NCBI GenBank assembly: GCA_022842065.1
Contig: JALHQH010000042.1
Coordinates: 1-64,000 of the forward strand
Direction of reading: 5' to 3'
Length of the DNA: 64,000 nucleotides
From: Caldilineaceae bacterium
GTDB lineage: Bacteria; Chloroflexota; Anaerolineae; Caldilineales; Caldilineaceae
In this document: positions 13,526 through 20,723 of the stretch, one piece after another
How the letters are laid out: each line of letters opens with the position of its first letter
Numbering within the stretch: position 1 is the stretch's first letter
Position numbers and translations under genes: made by a program
The notes under the pieces: model-generated
Told to the model about the DNA's origin: nothing
Database searches by the model: none
What the model saw: the letters and a program-made list of their open reading frames with translations, nothing else

Positions 13526-14002
13526 ATGATTAAATTGATACCGATGTCAACGACTGAATATGAGGAATACCTGGCCCGTACCATCCCCGAATATGCCGAT
13601 GAGAAGGTTAAAGCAGGCAACTGGAGCAGTACGGAAGCATTACAAAAAGCACAGGAGAGTTACCAGCAGTTGTTGCCCGACGGGGTGGCAACGCCTAATC
13701 AATATCTCTATACTATTCAGGAGACAGCAACCGGCAAGGCCGTGGGCCTGATCTGGATGGCGGTCATCCAGCAACCAGATAAAAAGACCGGCTTCATTTA
13801 CGATCTCTATATCGAAGAAGCGGCGCGTCAACGCGGTTATGGGGGCGGGGCGATGTTAGCGCTGGAAGACGAAGCGCGTGCGGTCGGCGTCGAGAAGTTA
13901 GCCCTGCACGTCTTTGGCCACAACCACGTCGCACAGGCACTTTATACAAAACTTGGCTACGAAATCACTAACCTCAACATGGCCAAATCACTCACCAGTT
14001 GA
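13526..14002 (+). CDS. GNAT-family N-acetyltransferase
   Basis: 158-aa acetyl-CoA-dependent acyltransferase. The acetyl-CoA loop is seen as RQRGYGGGAMLALEDEA, preceded by the strand IYDLYIEEAA and followed by ALHVFGHNHVAQALYTKLGYE, the classic C-terminal GNAT pattern. The first 70 residues are helical and acidic and do not identify a substrate. AAGGAG 5 bp before ATG 13526 and a good promoter fix the start; the frame is open from 13454. Its stop overlaps the convergent XdhC-like gene by 11 bp, so no terminator separates them. Confidence 0.88.
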   Translation: MIKLIPMSTTEYEEYLARTIPEYADEKVKAGNWSSTEALQKAQESYQQLLPDGVATPNQYLYTIQETATGKAVGLIWMAVIQQPDKKTGFIYDLYIEEAARQRGYGGGAMLALEDEARAVGVEKLALHVFGHNHVAQALYTKLGYEITNLNMAKSLTS

Positions 14003-14306
14003 GTGGCTCGACAAAGACTTCAATGTTGCCACCACAGGCTAGCCCGACGCTAATCGCCAATTCGTCGGCGATGCCATATTCAACCAGTTTGGGTTGGCCG
14101 GTTTTTAAGACAGCCAATGCCTCCTGCACCACCGCCCCCTCTACGCAGCCGCCGCTGACCGACCCGGCCATTTCCCCCTGTGCCGAGATCGCCATCTTTG
14201 CCCCCAACGGGCGCGGGGCAGAGCCATAAACTTTGACAACCGTCGCCAGTGCCACGGCCTTTCCTTCGCTGCGCCAACGGTCAATGTCAGCTAATACTTC
14301 ACGCAT
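13992..14306 (-). CDS. XdhC/CoxI N-terminal-domain protein
   Basis: 104-aa stand-alone version of the XdhC/CoxI N-terminal domain. Full XdhC proteins, which carry sulphurated molybdenum cofactor to xanthine dehydrogenase-type enzymes, have this domain followed by a Rossmann domain that is missing here. The landmarks are GSAPRPLGAKMAI, GSVSGGCVEG and the cysteine-bearing GLACGG near the end. AAGGAG precedes the ATG. It sits at the far end of the cox locus in the same orientation, so a role in maturing the coxSLM enzyme is likely. A partner with the Rossmann half was not found in the window, so the protein is either sufficient alone or works with a distant gene. Confidence 0.8.
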   Translation of the reverse strand: MREVLADIDRWRSEGKAVALATVVKVYGSAPRPLGAKMAISAQGEMAGSVSGGCVEGAVVQEALAVLKTGQPKLVEYGIADELAISVGLACGGNIEVFVEPLNW

Positions 14307-14432: not shown

Positions 14433-15203
14433 TTATTGGTCATTGCGTAGAAAATCGAGTTGGGTCGCAATGGCCGTTGCGCGAAAAGTCGCTTCGGCAC
14501 GCACCGCTGAGGGGTGGATGATCGTATCAGGATCGGGCACCACTTCCTGGCCGGTACGGGCGTTGGTCACCACGATGCCATCACCGGTGGCGGTTGGTGC
14601 AAACAGCAATCTGGTGACGGCGCTAGCAATCCGCCCTCGTTCATCCGGTACGATGGGCTGATAGCCGCCATTCACCAGAGTATAACCCAGCACACGATAG
14701 TTGATCTGATCACTATCGACCCGCTCGCTACTGTCGACAATAAAATATTCGCGCACGCCCCCCTGGGCATAGATGGCCACTTTCTCATGCAGATCGAGGG
14801 TCGCCAAGCGCGGGGAAGTGACCTCCAAGACAAAACCTGGGCGCTTGCCTTCTGCCGCCACATCAAAGGTGACACGACTGCTATCTTGGGTATCGACCCC
14901 GCTCACCACCGCCAGATCAGGGGCGGGTTGGGAAAGATCAGGTTGCTCCCACAGCAGTTTCACGCCACCGATCACCGCCACCACTGGGTTGACACGGTAG
15001 TGATGACGCAAAATGGCATAGAGCCGGGCGACATCGGCGTCATGGCGCGGGCCGTGGTTAAAAACATCATGCTCCTGTGGATCAAGAAAATCCTGGGGGG
15101 TCAGCGGATCGTAGCCATAGGTCGGCTGCGCGGTCTTGTCATAGTCAATCAGTTGGCGACGACCGTAGTAGTATTGGTCATCGGTGAGTGTGGTAAATGA
15201 CAT
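14433..15203 (-). CDS. Uma2-family PD-(D/E)XK protein
   Basis: 256-aa member of the Uma2/DUF820 family, a predicted restriction-endonuclease-like fold expanded in cyanobacteria and Chloroflexota with no settled function. The core can be read: QPAPDLAVVSG (acidic metal ligand), GFVLEVTSP (Glu of the E-x-K-like region) and REYFIVDSS. The second, shorter Uma2 gene at 20169 is a distant relative. ATG 15203 begins MSFTTLTDDQYY; the frame is open from 15257. It lies between coxE and the XdhC-like gene, in the same direction, and looks like an insertion into that order. Confidence 0.8.
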   Translation of the reverse strand: MSFTTLTDDQYYYGRRQLIDYDKTAQPTYGYDPLTPQDFLDPQEHDVFNHGPRHDADVARLYAILRHHYRVNPVVAVIGGVKLLWEQPDLSQPAPDLAVVSGVDTQDSSRVTFDVAAEGKRPGFVLEVTSPRLATLDLHEKVAIYAQGGVREYFIVDSSERVDSDQINYRVLGYTLVNGGYQPIVPDERGRIASAVTRLLFAPTATGDGIVVTNARTGQEVVPDPDTIIHPSAVRAEATFRATAIATQLDFLRNDQ

Positions 15204-15287
15204 TGATAGAAACCTTGTTATCGGCCGAGGACGCAGAGCGTCCAACCGGCATTCCACCGGAGACCGGTGGAACGAGTAAACGAGTAA

Positions 15288-16442
15288 TTAACGATTAGCC
15301 AGCACTTTCGCCAACTGCTCCAGACTGACCAAATTGTGAACCGGCAAAAAATCGTCCACATGGGGCAGGGCGGCTTGAATCCCCCGCACGAGGGGCTGGT
15401 ATTCGGGGGCACCGAGCAGCGGGTTGAGCCAGATCAAACGGTGGCAGGAACGGTGCAGCCGGTCCATCTCGCTACCAAGCAGTGCAATATCGCCCCGGTC
15501 CCAGCCATCGCTGATGATCAGTACAATCGCCCCTTGGCCCAGGACACGGCGCGCCCACAAGTAGTTGAAATTTTTGATCGCCTCGCCAATCCGCGTCCCG
15601 CCGGCCCAATCATGGACCACGGCACTGGCCTCGCGCAGCGCTTCATCCACATTGCGCCGCCGCAGTTGATGGGTGATGCGGGTGAGCCGCGTGCTGAAGA
15701 CAAAGGACTCAACGCGATCTAGGCGGCTGCTGACGATGTAGATAAACTGGAGCAAAAGCCGTGAATAGCGCGCCATCGAGCCGCTAATATCGCAGAGCAA
15801 TACCACCGGGCGGCGCTTGTACTTACGCGCCTTGAAGGCGAGATCGAGCATTTCCCCGCCATGACGCAGGTTCCGCCGCAAGGTCCGCCGTGGATCAATC
15901 AACCCACCGTGGGGCGCTTGCACCCGTCGCCGCGTGCGTCGCGGTTCAAGCTGCCAATGGATTTGGCTCATCAGGCGCTGGACCGCGGCCAGTTCATATT
16001 CATCAAGGCGGGCAAAATCCTTTTGGCGCAGGATCTCTTGATCACTGTAGACAAGCACCTGCTCTTCTTCGGCGCTTTCCTCACCCGGTGTGTCGCTGCT
16101 GGCGGTCGGTTGGTCACGATAAAGTTCAACCTCTTTTTGATCAGGCTGGTTCAAGAGGTTGCCAGGGTTAAGGATGCTCAGCTCGCCTTCACCGCGTGCT
16201 TGCCAAAAGAGATCAAAGGCTTGGTCAAAGAGCGTCAGATCTTCGCGGCGGTTGATCAGCACAGCGCGGGCGCTGTTTTTAAAGTCCGTGCGCCGCCCAA
16301 TCTCCACATAATTGAGGCTGTCAACCAGATCGACCAGTTGCGTGGGGGTCACCTCAATACCGAGACCGCGCAGCAGCCGGGCAAAGAGCACACAGTTACG
16401 CAGGAGTTGGCCGCTAGTAACAGCTTGTGTCCCCTCACTCAC
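15288..16442 (-). CDS. coxE: CoxE-like von Willebrand factor A protein
   Basis: 384-aa cytoplasmic VWA protein that works with the MoxR-type ATPase CoxD in maturing the metal centre of CO dehydrogenase-type enzymes. An intact MIDAS motif, D-x-S-x-S, is at residues 218-222 (CDISGSM); GGTRIGEAI and IISDGWDRGD supply the other metal-site elements. The N-terminal half has a helical region, an acidic linker (about 115-135) and an Arg-rich stretch (168-195). It starts with GTG that overlaps the stop of the upstream small ORF (GTGA). Its usual partner coxD is 2.8 kb upstream, separated by the DUF262/ATPase cassette. Confidence 0.85.
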   Translation of the reverse strand: MSEGTQAVTSGQLLRNCVLFARLLRGLGIEVTPTQLVDLVDSLNYVEIGRRTDFKNSARAVLINRREDLTLFDQAFDLFWQARGEGELSILNPGNLLNQPDQKEVELYRDQPTASSDTPGEESAEEEQVLVYSDQEILRQKDFARLDEYELAAVQRLMSQIHWQLEPRRTRRRVQAPHGGLIDPRRTLRRNLRHGGEMLDLAFKARKYKRRPVVLLCDISGSMARYSRLLLQFIYIVSSRLDRVESFVFSTRLTRITHQLRRRNVDEALREASAVVHDWAGGTRIGEAIKNFNYLWARRVLGQGAIVLIISDGWDRGDIALLGSEMDRLHRSCHRLIWLNPLLGAPEYQPLVRGIQAALPHVDDFLPVHNLVSLEQLAKVLANR

Positions 16443-16765
16443 AGATCTAACCTTTTCGTTGTGTCTTTTTTGCCTATAAATGTTCCATCAAGTGCTGCCT
16501 CACCTATGTGGTTTCCGGTGTGATCAAAAATCTCAAGATGTGCAGATGGACCATAGTGCAAGCTGTCTACATACCAGTAGTTTTCTGTAGTTTGCTCTAA
16601 ATAAACCCGCCGCCCTTTTTTAATATATGTAGTCGCTCGAAAACGGCCATTATATTGATTAAACAAGCTAAGTAACGTATAAAACTGCTTAAAAGAGTCC
16701 ACAAGAACGCTACGTTCATGTAGCTGTTCATGAAACGAGCACTCATTAATGAAGACTTGAATCAT
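16439..16765 (-). CDS. Small protein of unknown function, third gene of the DUF262/ATPase cassette
   Basis: 108-aa protein that I do not recognise. It begins MIQVFINECSFHEQL and has several aromatic and basic residues in the middle (TYIKKGRRVYLEQ) and a short charged C-terminus; no membrane segment or known catalytic motif is seen. Its start overlaps the ATPase stop by 4 bp and its stop overlaps the coxE GTG by 4 bp, so it is coupled on both sides. It could be a truncated copy of a longer third component left when the cassette joined coxE, or a complete accessory protein. Its AT-rich codon use matches the ATPase and DUF262 genes, not coxE. Confidence 0.7.
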   Translation of the reverse strand: MIQVFINECSFHEQLHERSVLVDSFKQFYTLLSLFNQYNGRFRATTYIKKGRRVYLEQTTENYWYVDSLHYGPSAHLEIFDHTGNHIGEAALDGTFIGKKDTTKRLDL

Positions 16766-18039
16766 ACACCAAATAACCGTTCAAAATCTTTATCGGTTTG
16801 ATCAAAAAAGCCAGCAGGCCAATGCTCGATAGAACCATCAGCATTAACTGGAATCCGTTCTATGTTCTGTTCAGCGGAACGCGAAAAGTAGAGCACATTT
16901 AGGTCAGTATCTGCAATTACTTTGTCTAACACAGCAACGCGCAGGGCATTCAGGATATGATCGCTATGCGATTCAATAAAGACTTGAACACCTGTCACGC
17001 TCACCTTTGCTAAAAATTTAGTAAGCTGTGACTGCGCATATGGATGCAGATGCGCTTCGGGGTTTTCAACGATTAACCGCTCATTCGGTTTTGCAACGAG
17101 GCCAGCAACAATAATAGGGAGCACATAGCTATAACCAAAGCCGACATTGACCGGTTTATAAGAATGTATACTGCGTTCAGAATTCAGCGCCATCAACACA
17201 ATATTAGCATGTAGCTGATCGATTATAAGCCGTCCTCCGCCGAAAATGAGATCAAGCCATGCTTCTGTTTGGTCAAGCACAGTTGCGGTAGAACCTGTTT
17301 CTAAACATAATGCTTCATGTACCTCATCAAACTGCCTCTTGGCTAATACATTAGCTGTAAATTCGCCACGCGTCCCTACATTCGGGAATTCAGCAAAGCT
17401 TTGCTTCGGATAGTAGTCCTGTGGCCCTAAGCGATCCGCAGAGAGATAGTGAGTTTTCCGAAATTCGATATCGTGAAGAAGATGGATAACCAAATTGGCG
17501 ACTTCTTCTGGGGACTTATCGTGTATTTCCTCTTCTGTTTGGTTTGTATCGACCAATAAATTACGCCAGTAAAGATTTAAATATTTTTCGTTCGTATCTT
17601 TGTTGTGTACAGAAAAGTGCAAAAGGCCGATAGATGGTTGATAAACGATTCTATAATCTTGTTGTTTCGGCGAAAAATCCACTGTAAATTCTTCAATGTC
17701 TGCAATCATTTCATCATAAGGATTTTCGGCAAAGTGATAAGTAAGCCAAATATGCGATTGTGCGAATTGGTAGATGAATTTAAACGAAATAGGTTCACTG
17801 CGCGGCGTCTCACTATTACGGACATCATCAAAGTTACCAAGGTTGACACAACTACCATTAAAAATAATTTGTTCGGTACTCAGGCTATGCTCAAGCGATT
17901 GGCGCATTAGGAGCAATGGCTGCAGCGCAGTAGATTTGCCGCGCCCATTAATTCCCGTAAACAGATTGAGCCGCTGCAGTGGAATCCAGCTTTTTTTTGG
18001 GAAACATTTAAAGTTTTCTAATTCTATCGCCGTTAACAT
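16762..18039 (-). CDS. AAA-type ATPase of the DUF3696/OLD-like class
   Basis: 425-aa SMC/OLD-related ATPase. It opens MLTAIELENFKCF, as in RecF-like ATPases, with Walker A GINGRGKST at 29-37. A helical insert follows. The C-terminal part has RLIVENPEAHLHPYAQSQL (Walker B with the family Asn/Glu and signature His-Leu-His) and VFIESHSDHILNALRVAV (switch His), typical of DUF3696 proteins. Such ATPases occur in defence systems with an effector partner. The upstream DUF262 gene overlaps it by 7 bp and the downstream small ORF by 4 bp, so the three form one translational unit. Codon use is clearly more AT-rich than in the coxD and coxE genes that flank it. Confidence 0.82.
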   Translation of the reverse strand: MLTAIELENFKCFPKKSWIPLQRLNLFTGINGRGKSTALQPLLLMRQSLEHSLSTEQIIFNGSCVNLGNFDDVRNSETPRSEPISFKFIYQFAQSHIWLTYHFAENPYDEMIADIEEFTVDFSPKQQDYRIVYQPSIGLLHFSVHNKDTNEKYLNLYWRNLLVDTNQTEEEIHDKSPEEVANLVIHLLHDIEFRKTHYLSADRLGPQDYYPKQSFAEFPNVGTRGEFTANVLAKRQFDEVHEALCLETGSTATVLDQTEAWLDLIFGGGRLIIDQLHANIVLMALNSERSIHSYKPVNVGFGYSYVLPIIVAGLVAKPNERLIVENPEAHLHPYAQSQLTKFLAKVSVTGVQVFIESHSDHILNALRVAVLDKVIADTDLNVLYFSRSAEQNIERIPVNADGSIEHWPAGFFDQTDKDFERLFGV

Positions 18040-19184
18040 CTGGTGTCATCCAAAATATTTTTTGCTAATGAAAATCTAGTCATGACACGTTTCTTATCAC
18101 CAGTAGAAAATCGTACTGCATCAACAAACGTTTCGTTTTTAAGCAACTTCTGATAATTACAAATGATCTGTTGTTGATGTAACTTTATAAATTCATCTGA
18201 TTTGTTTGCAAAAAAGTAGCAGATAGCCTCCATTAAAGCAATATTGATAGGACCCCGCTTAGATTCATTCGAAAGTCTAAAGTTATCTTCACGAAATAGC
18301 ATATAGGTCCATCGCATAGCTCGTTCAAAATCCGCTGCTAACAATTGAATCTCAGCATCATTCATTTGGTTAATGCGCTTCATCGCTTCACCAAGAAAAG
18401 CATCCATATCGTCTTTATATGCTGTTTCATAATCCTGAAGATAGAAAGCTAGAAATCTGAGAATCGCTTCACGGTCCTTCATCCGTTTTGGAGAAATACC
18501 ATTATCGATAGCTTGTCTGAAATATTCTTGTTGCGACAAATCTTTGAGAAGACGGGTTGCACTGCCAATATAAAAGCAATTCCGAATTTCTTGGCGGGTT
18601 AATTGCGTACCACCGGTATTAATTCGATGAAAGATGTCATAGACCATCGGCAGTGGAACAGTAGGCTTGATGACATAAATCAATAATTTCCGATCCTCAA
18701 TACGCGCCTGGTCTTTTTGCTCTAAGGTATTAAAACTGCGCCCATTCAGATGGCGCAGCAGCTTTAGATCAGATAAAGCAAATTTATCTTTTAGATAAGT
18801 ATTTAGTGTTGATGTTCGTTGTAACCCATCAACGACAATATACTTGCCATCAGCACGCTGGTTAACATATAAAGGTGGCAGCGGAATATTGATCAGCACT
18901 GATTCAATAAATTGTGACTGTTGGGTAGCTTTCCAAACCAAATTGCGCTGGAACTCTGGTTCAACGATTAGCAAACCTCGATCAAGCTTTCTAATCCACT
19001 CAAAGATCGTTTGTGGATCTTCGCGGATATCCACTTCTTCAGGCATATTATATGGATAAATCGAGCCATCGGCATAAGTCTCAGCGTCAAGTATATCATC
19101 GGTGACTAGAACATCTGCCGACGAGTATACACCATTACCCTTATGAAAAGGTGCATAGGCTGACGTCAGTTCATCCCGCATCAT
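18033..19184 (-). CDS. DUF262 (ParB/GmrSD-N-like) domain protein
   Basis: 383-aa protein of the DUF262 family, the ParB-like fold found in type IV restriction enzymes (GmrS half) and several defence systems. PEFQRNLVW is at 76-84, the NTPase-like signature DGLQRTSTL at 119-127 and INTGGTQLTRQEIRN further on. It lacks the C-terminal HNH (DUF1524) region expected of a full GmrSD nuclease. The frame is open from 19214, but ATG 19184 follows GGGAG and is preferred. It begins 47 bp after coxD and shares its promoter or that of the whole cox locus. Function in phage defence is inference; the DUF262 plus ATPase pairing is the reason. Confidence 0.82.
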   Translation of the reverse strand: MMRDELTSAYAPFHKGNGVYSSADVLVTDDILDAETYADGSIYPYNMPEEVDIREDPQTIFEWIRKLDRGLLIVEPEFQRNLVWKATQQSQFIESVLINIPLPPLYVNQRADGKYIVVDGLQRTSTLNTYLKDKFALSDLKLLRHLNGRSFNTLEQKDQARIEDRKLLIYVIKPTVPLPMVYDIFHRINTGGTQLTRQEIRNCFYIGSATRLLKDLSQQEYFRQAIDNGISPKRMKDREAILRFLAFYLQDYETAYKDDMDAFLGEAMKRINQMNDAEIQLLAADFERAMRWTYMLFREDNFRLSNESKRGPINIALMEAICYFFANKSDEFIKLHQQQIICNYQKLLKNETFVDAVRFSTGDKKRVMTRFSLAKNILDDTRC

Positions 19185-19230
19185 TTTAATGACTCCCTTC
19201 CAATCAATCCACACCCTGAACGCTTGGACA

Positions 19231-20136
19231 CTACATCACCCCCGGCAACCGCTGCATGATCGGTTTTACGGCGCGCCGTTGGGCATGTTCAATATCGTCG
19301 CGATATTTGAGCAGGACGCCAAGCGTGTCATTCACAATTTCCTCGGTCAGCGCTTCTTGATCGAGTGCGACCAGGGCGGTGATCCAATCCAGGGTTTCGG
19401 CGACGCCGGGCAACTTATATAATTCTTCGCGGCGCAATTCCTGGATAAAGGCAACGACCTGGCGGGCTAACTGTGCGGGTGCGTTCGGCACTTTGGCCAG
19501 CACAATCCCATATTCCTTGGCAAAGTCGGGGTAGTCGATCCAGTGGTACAGACAGCGCCGTTTGAGCGCATCATGGATCTCACGTGTACGGTTGGAAGTG
19601 ATAATCACCACCGGTGGCGTTATCGCTTTGATCGTACCCAGTTCAGGAATGGTTACCTGGAAGTCCGAGAGCACTTCAAGCAAGAAGGCTTCAAACTCTT
19701 CGTCGGCACGATCCAGTTCGTCGATCAGCAGCACAGGCGCTTGGCCGTCGTGGCTATCAATTGCCTGTAACAGGGGCCGTTTGAGCAGAAAGTGGGGGCT
19801 AAAGAGTTCGTGGCGGGCGCTCTCGACGTTGACCTGGCCGGCGGCTTCCAGCAGCCGGATCTGCAACATCTGCCCCGTATAGTTCCACTCGTAGACTGCG
19901 CTGTTAACATCCAACCCTTCATAACATTGCAGGCGAATCAATGGGCGATCCAGCATGGTCGCCAACACCTTGGCAATTTCGGTCTTACCGACGCCAGCCT
20001 CCCCTTCCAGAAAGAGCGGGCGTTGCAACTTCAGGGCGAGGAAGATGGCGGTGGCTAGGCTACGTTCACTGACATAGTCACAGGCGGCCAGTCGTTGCTG
20101 AAGCTCATCGATCGATTTGATTTCAACGTGACTCAC
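19231..20136 (-). CDS. coxD: CoxD-like MoxR-family AAA+ ATPase
   Basis: 301-aa AAA+ chaperone ATPase acting with CoxE in assembly of the molybdenum-copper or molybdenum-sulphur site of CO dehydrogenase-family enzymes. Walker A GEAGVGKT is at 45-52, Walker B is VLLIDELDRAD, sensor 1 is IITSNRTREIHDALKRRC, and the C-terminal lid helix follows. Length and landmarks match CoxD. It starts at GTG 20136 with GGAG upstream. The 32-bp distance to the Uma2 gene upstream suggests continuous transcription. Its natural downstream partner coxE is displaced by the inserted DUF262/ATPase cassette. Confidence 0.9.
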   Translation of the reverse strand: MSHVEIKSIDELQQRLAACDYVSERSLATAIFLALKLQRPLFLEGEAGVGKTEIAKVLATMLDRPLIRLQCYEGLDVNSAVYEWNYTGQMLQIRLLEAAGQVNVESARHELFSPHFLLKRPLLQAIDSHDGQAPVLLIDELDRADEEFEAFLLEVLSDFQVTIPELGTIKAITPPVVIITSNRTREIHDALKRRCLYHWIDYPDFAKEYGIVLAKVPNAPAQLARQVVAFIQELRREELYKLPGVAETLDWITALVALDQEALTEEIVNDTLGVLLKYRDDIEHAQRRAVKPIMQRLPGVM

Positions 20137-20168
20137 ACAGCGCTCCAGGGATCTCTTTTATCGATAAG

Positions 20169-20645
20169 TTAAACGATTTTGCGGGGAAAGGGCGGACACA
20201 ATTTGGATACCTTGATTTCGCCGGCAGTCGTATAAAAGTGTATAACCCCCGCTTTATCACAAGTCCAGACTTCTTGGGCACCTGCGCCAAAATATAATTG
20301 CTTTTTGTTTGCGATCTCTGGATTAGAATTTGCTTTTGAAACAACCGCCACACAGATCTCAGGCGCGATGTCACTCTCGTAGGCATCCTTGATGCGCTGC
20401 CAACACTGCTCAGAAGCCCAAACAACATCAGCGACTTTCGTCCCTTGCGTCGTTAAGATGGCACATTCTACGGTCGCTTCACCGGGTAGTTGCATTAGTT
20501 GGGTCAATAACATGCCAATCTTTAGTTGATACTTGCCATGCATGACCTTCGCCGGGGTCATCACGATCTGCCCCCATTCATTAGTTTCAATTTTAAAGGG
20601 TAGATTTTGTAAATGCGGATCCGCAACAACATCCTTCCATTCCAT
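20169..20645 (-). CDS. Short Uma2-family PD-(D/E)XK protein
   Basis: 158-aa Uma2/DUF820-like protein. The readable core is ATVECAILTTQGTKVADVVWAS (Asp ligand), PEICVAVVSKAN (family Glu replaced by Val-Val-Ser, with Glu two residues earlier) and QEVWTCDKAGVIHFY. The substitution in the second catalytic strand makes nuclease activity doubtful. ATG 20645 follows GAGG at a good distance; the frame is open from 20696. It lies between the GNAT gene and coxD, all on the minus strand. It is only distantly like the Uma2 gene at 14433, so the two did not arise by a recent duplication. Confidence 0.75.
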   Translation of the reverse strand: MEWKDVVADPHLQNLPFKIETNEWGQIVMTPAKVMHGKYQLKIGMLLTQLMQLPGEATVECAILTTQGTKVADVVWASEQCWQRIKDAYESDIAPEICVAVVSKANSNPEIANKKQLYFGAGAQEVWTCDKAGVIHFYTTAGEIKVSKLCPPFPRKIV

Positions 20646-20723
20646 AAATACCTCAAGCTGATGATAAGTTATATAACGCGCCCAAAGTGCGACCAAAGTA
20701 ATAGCGACATTATACCACGTTTC

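Follow-up and report, generated by a model that had tools for sequence, protein, structure and literature searches.

A three-gene cassette was analyzed in DNA from a Caldilineaceae bacterium (assembly GCA_022842065.1, contig JALHQH010000042.1, positions 1 to 64,000 of the forward strand), a stretch of 64,000 nucleotides referred to below as the window. In an open reading frame (ORF) check of the window, the genes, named nsnA, nsnB and nsnC after the protein matches given below, lay between coxD and coxE, at positions 16439–19184 of the minus strand. The first gene, nsnA (18033–19184), encodes a DUF262/GmrSD_N protein of 383 residues and the second, nsnB (16762–18039), an OLD-like ATPase with DUF3696 of 425 residues, both assigned from PADLOC, Pfam and conservation. 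The third, nsnC (16439–16765), assigned from PADLOC and alignments, encodes an internally shortened protein of 108 residues that consists of a 37-residue N-terminal stub and a C-terminal domain resembling a ribonuclease (RNase). As originally predicted, nsnA overlaps nsnB by 7 bp and nsnB overlaps nsnC by 4 bp; in addition, the end of nsnC overlaps the GTG start of coxE (15288–16442, minus strand) by 4 bp, and 46 bp separate the stop of coxD (19231–20136, minus strand) from the nsnA ATG, which is preceded by a purine-rich stretch that may be a ribosome-binding site. Given this geometry, the trio would be transcribed together with coxD and coxE. The neighbors were identified from their ORFs and Pfam matches as an AAA_5 protein (CoxD) and a VWA_CoxE protein (CoxE). 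The trio was also more AT-rich than these neighbors, as had been claimed, with a GC content of 0.39–0.42 and a GC content at third codon positions (GC3) of 0.34–0.38, compared with 0.59 and 0.67 for coxE and 0.56 and 0.66 for coxD.

The best indication of identity came from PADLOC, in which the three proteins matched models of NsnA (PDLC03877, 1.6e-121), NsnB (PDLC03878, 4.1e-114) and NsnC (PDLC03889, 7.4e-26). We take the Nsn genes to be those of the Menshen anti-phage system. Judged from these matches, the trio is a copy of this known system, and the system itself is not new. The possibility of a new defense system, raised in the original prediction and compatible with an unusual small third gene that matches no Pfam family, is extremely improbable because PADLOC names all three proteins, a match to a named system being one of the outcomes that the prediction itself had listed as refuting it.

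Domain assignments and conservation agreed with the description given earlier for the first two proteins. Thus, NsnA matched GmrSD_N/DUF262 in Pfam (1.9e-25), with the DGLQR motif at residues 119–123, and gave no Pfam match to the DUF1524 nuclease domain; NsnB matched AAA_15, AAA_21 and DUF3696 and gave no Pfam match to TOPRIM, so that any nuclease should be located elsewhere. Also supported was the reading of the two genes as a defense pairing, with a DUF262 protein of the ParB fold next to an OLD-like ATPase. Relatives of NsnB were taken from one-per-species genomes (the best 80 of 212), and an NsnA match was found at 72 of these 80 loci and an orthologue of the window NsnC, with gene order as in the window, at 32; the trio, whose occurrence elsewhere had been put forward as a point to check, therefore recurs. 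The window NsnA kept 47 of the 49 alignment columns that 90% or more of 59 NsnA relatives (those of the 72 with E ≤ 1e-45) have in common, including DGxQR, and NsnB kept all 54 of its conserved columns (80 relatives), including Walker A and the IVENPEAHLHP stretch. Both proteins look intact by this measure. Searched against PDB sequences, NsnA had no match up to E 1 and NsnB matched an OLD nuclease (6p74, 7.7e-4).

Comparison with known systems placed the locus closest to Menshen, which it resembles in gene order, the three protein families, a DUF262 protein without DUF1524, an ATPase with DUF3696 and tight gene packing, and from which it differs by its location in a cox cluster and by a 108-residue NsnC without the middle part. 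A match of NsnA to PD-T4-2_A (5e-49) was far weaker than that to the Menshen model, and PD-T4-2 was absent from the families listed for NsnB (the best 25 of 114) and for NsnC. GmrSD and BrxU type IV restriction systems have GmrSD_N and DGxQR in common with NsnA, but NsnA lacks the DUF1524 nuclease and did not qualify as GmrSD. Gabija GajA and OLD nucleases contain a related ATPase, and GajA models matched NsnB at 8.5e-16, whereas NsnB has DUF3696 in place of a TOPRIM match.

The unusual feature of the locus, overlooked in the original prediction, is the missing middle of NsnC. NsnC was 252–300 residues long in 31 of the 32 loci with an orthologue, the exception (L020) being frameshifted. The window protein aligned to its relatives over its first 37 and last 71 residues only, and at the junction (codons 37–39, positions 16649–16657) between 147 and 176 more residues were present in every relative that had both ends. 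These numbered 42 among the 54 database proteins, of which 12 fragments were set aside, and 31 among the 32 loci, L020 being left out. The difference corresponds to an in-frame deletion of about 160 residues. The small third ORF noted earlier is thus present, with 108 codons for amino acids, but it is a shortened NsnC rather than an independent small gene; an unrelated tiny gene was considered and rejected on account of the PADLOC NsnC match and the alignments of both ends. NsnA in first position, NsnB in second position with its motifs intact and NsnC downstream of NsnB identify the locus as Menshen by descent, while the absence of a full-length NsnC, of which some 160 residues are missing, keeps it from being classed as an intact Menshen system.

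Closely similar sequences were found for both ends of the shortened protein. Thus, P0122 was identical to the window NsnC over the first 37 residues and then continued into the middle, and P0147, which also contains the middle, had the same residue at 65 of 70 positions in the C-terminal part. Near-identical copies therefore possess the part that the window NsnC lacks. P0122, which lies on a contig of 712 bp, follows the family sequence for only about 110 residues, and P0147 begins at an internal Met; these irregularities may reflect either repeated damage to NsnC in this lineage or effects of contig edges. A database search of proteins of about 60–189 residues with the 108-residue form found only that form itself and P0122. 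An error of assembly or sequencing, in which case the organism itself would carry an ordinary, intact Menshen system with NsnC at full length, would account for a short form confined to one contig and for the middle being present in near-identical relatives, but the junction is in frame, and both parts of nsnC and the neighboring genes read cleanly with normal overlaps. We regard such an error as somewhat unlikely.

Two further observations concern irregular NsnC sequences. In the Menshen locus of Okeania (L020, 4068–8134), the coding sequence of nsnC is divided between two frames, and between nsnA and nsnB lie two short ORFs, which repeat the start of nsnB and the end of nsnA. A protein of 111 residues (P0174) combines a first half that shows no match to the family with an NsnC tail like that of L002, and it has no Pfam match.

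The part of NsnC that was spared (residues 40–108, positions 16439–16648) is folded like the cytotoxic domain of colicin E3, as indicated by structure matching, profile alignment and conservation. Colicin E3 was the top structural match and, in a profile alignment to 1e44_B, the only PDB sequence match, a weak one (E 0.82). Residues D67, H70 and E78 correspond to the D-H-E triad of colicin E3, an assignment based on essential residues described in the consulted part of PMC4905994, and the triad was conserved in 46–47 of 47 proteins and 31–32 of 32 loci. Colicin E3 cleaves 16S ribosomal RNA (rRNA) between A1493 and G1494, according to an excerpt of PMC2615495. The fold and triad are also common to CdiA-CT(ECL), another 16S rRNase, but NsnC of this clade has four extra residues between H and E, and its gene is flanked by nsnB and coxE rather than by an immunity gene, in what appears to be a chromosomal three-gene set.

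Several results bear on whether this resemblance extends to function. PF09000 was not matched at gathering score by the window NsnC or among the families of 50 rows of this clade (A2); the L023 NsnC reached 0.055, below the cut-off, and the L040 and L042 tails had no match. Because of this, the tail is described here as one that may work like a colicin E3-type rRNase and not as a member of that family. A full-length NsnC profile had four chance-level matches to PDB sequences, colicin E3 not being among them, the L023 NsnC had none, and colicin E3 was not among the best 50 matches listed in a Foldseek search with the model of the window protein. The window NsnC alone gave 30 matches to PDB sequences (E 0.077–2.2), of which 29 were to Src SH3, and these were taken as chance. 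That the match reflects a shared fold only, the tail being a binding module or acting on another substrate, is consistent with the weak sequence score, the PF09000 result, the lack of the triad histidine in the L040 NsnC and an hhalign match between A2 and another group of third proteins (A7) that covers the N-domain and not the tails. We nevertheless consider this unlikely, given near-invariance of the triad and the place of colicin E3 as sole PDB sequence match and top structural match. No description of an E3-like NsnC tail appeared among the literature matches listed, which does not establish it as unpublished.

Retention of the RNase-like fold and triad, together with intact NsnA and NsnB and an unbroken frame, could also mean that the short NsnC is a working minimal effector. 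In the model of the window protein, a stub helix (residues 18–39) directly precedes the sheet, and such a helix, fused to the E3-like domain, might still allow NsnA and NsnB to trigger cutting of 16S rRNA. The lost domain, which would then be dispensable or would only tune activity, holds W91, E117, E120 and K150, however, all invariant in relatives, and was missing from none of the 42 database proteins and none of the 31 loci with both ends. We find a working minimal effector quite unlikely.

Third proteins of other types were found at the same position. At the 48 NsnB loci without an orthologue of the window NsnC, the ORF downstream of nsnB was 242–352 residues long in 45 and 73 residues long in one, and none was found in two. 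The A7 group (three relatives) has an N-domain in common with this clade (hhalign 99.6), whereas the tails did not align. Groups A5 and A6 matched each other (98.4), but their similarity to this clade was weak (13.3 and 0.7, respectively) and lay at the N-terminus. A5 (16 loci) and A6 (13 loci) together make up 29 loci with another type of third protein (e.g., L036, 7158–8060, and L058, 7148–7954), in which H, R and G are invariant in the C-terminal part (E-x-H-x-K, then R, then IG-x-HL-like endings), a part that does not resemble the E3-like tail. The third-gene position seems to be one at which effector domains are exchanged. Li et al. 2025, on domain polymorphism in Menshen, is cited in the consulted portions of PMC12704722 and PMC12839542.

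A partial NsnB match at E ≤ 1e-45 was found in 1 of 400 genomes sampled from the phylum of the genome that carries L056, a lower bound because scoring was restricted to at most four first-look candidates in each genome and that genome itself (G002) fell short. Relatives of NsnB were present in 14 of 72,556 plasmid records, seven of which covered 80% or more of the query, and in two of 50,697 phage records and one IMG/VR contig, all three of which covered about half of the protein.

The location of the trio was compared with cox loci from the same phylum (36 loci, L081–L116). Normal adjacency of coxD and coxE, assumed in the original prediction, held in part: coxD was directly upstream of coxE in 9 of 20 coxE loci, with 25–304 bp between aligned parts and without the trio in between, but there was no coxD within about 1.5 kb in the remaining 11 and no coxE within about 1.5 kb of the match in 15 loci found in coxD searches (L081, L083–L096), which argues against universal pairing. 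In the 36 cox loci, no match to NsnA or NsnB extended over more than 90 aligned residues, and no match to any of five cox proteins was found in the 80 NsnB loci, for which flanks of up to 6 kb were included. Because coxD and coxE are contiguous in part of the relatives, the low-GC trio is most simply explained as an insertion into that pair in the cox cluster. As to the route of insertion, repeats in 15000–20500 were short and chance-like, and no transfer RNA gene was found in the window. The cox cluster has more than one extra gene, since two genes for putative Uma2-family endonucleases (PF05685) sit there as well, one at 14433–15257 (minus strand, 6.4e-18) between coxE and an XdhC/CoxI-type gene and the other at 20169–20696 (minus strand, GC 0.46, 3.2e-10) between coxD and a GNAT gene. 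A short XdhC_CoxI protein of 104 residues (PF02625, 7.3e-29) is encoded downstream of coxE at 13992–14306 (minus strand).

We think it reasonably likely that the locus is a horizontally acquired Menshen operon between coxD and coxE, with a colicin-E3-like RNase effector, and that it is probably impaired by the deletion in NsnC. The mechanism of Menshen is described as still open in the consulted part of PMC10952713. On the simplest model of how such a system works when intact in this clade, NsnA would join NsnB in a sensor driven by nucleoside triphosphate, on which the N-domain of NsnC would dock, and infection would release or position the E3-like RNase, whereupon translation would stop. The window copy would have kept the sensor and the RNase domain and lost the coupling domain; it is probably impaired because the lost domain is the one that presumably couples the RNase to NsnA and NsnB. 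A loss-of-function allele is thus our first choice, ahead of an assembly error and, in third place, a working minimal effector.

For one Menshen clade, the E3-like tail gives a testable hypothesis of effector action, namely rRNA cleavage at the decoding center and abortive infection. The natural deletion separates a putative toxin domain from a putative control domain and, if real, suggests that the spared toxin-like domain either lacks free toxicity at the level at which it is expressed or needs the N-domain for its action. Should the short form be real, the reason why the cell tolerates it would be informative.
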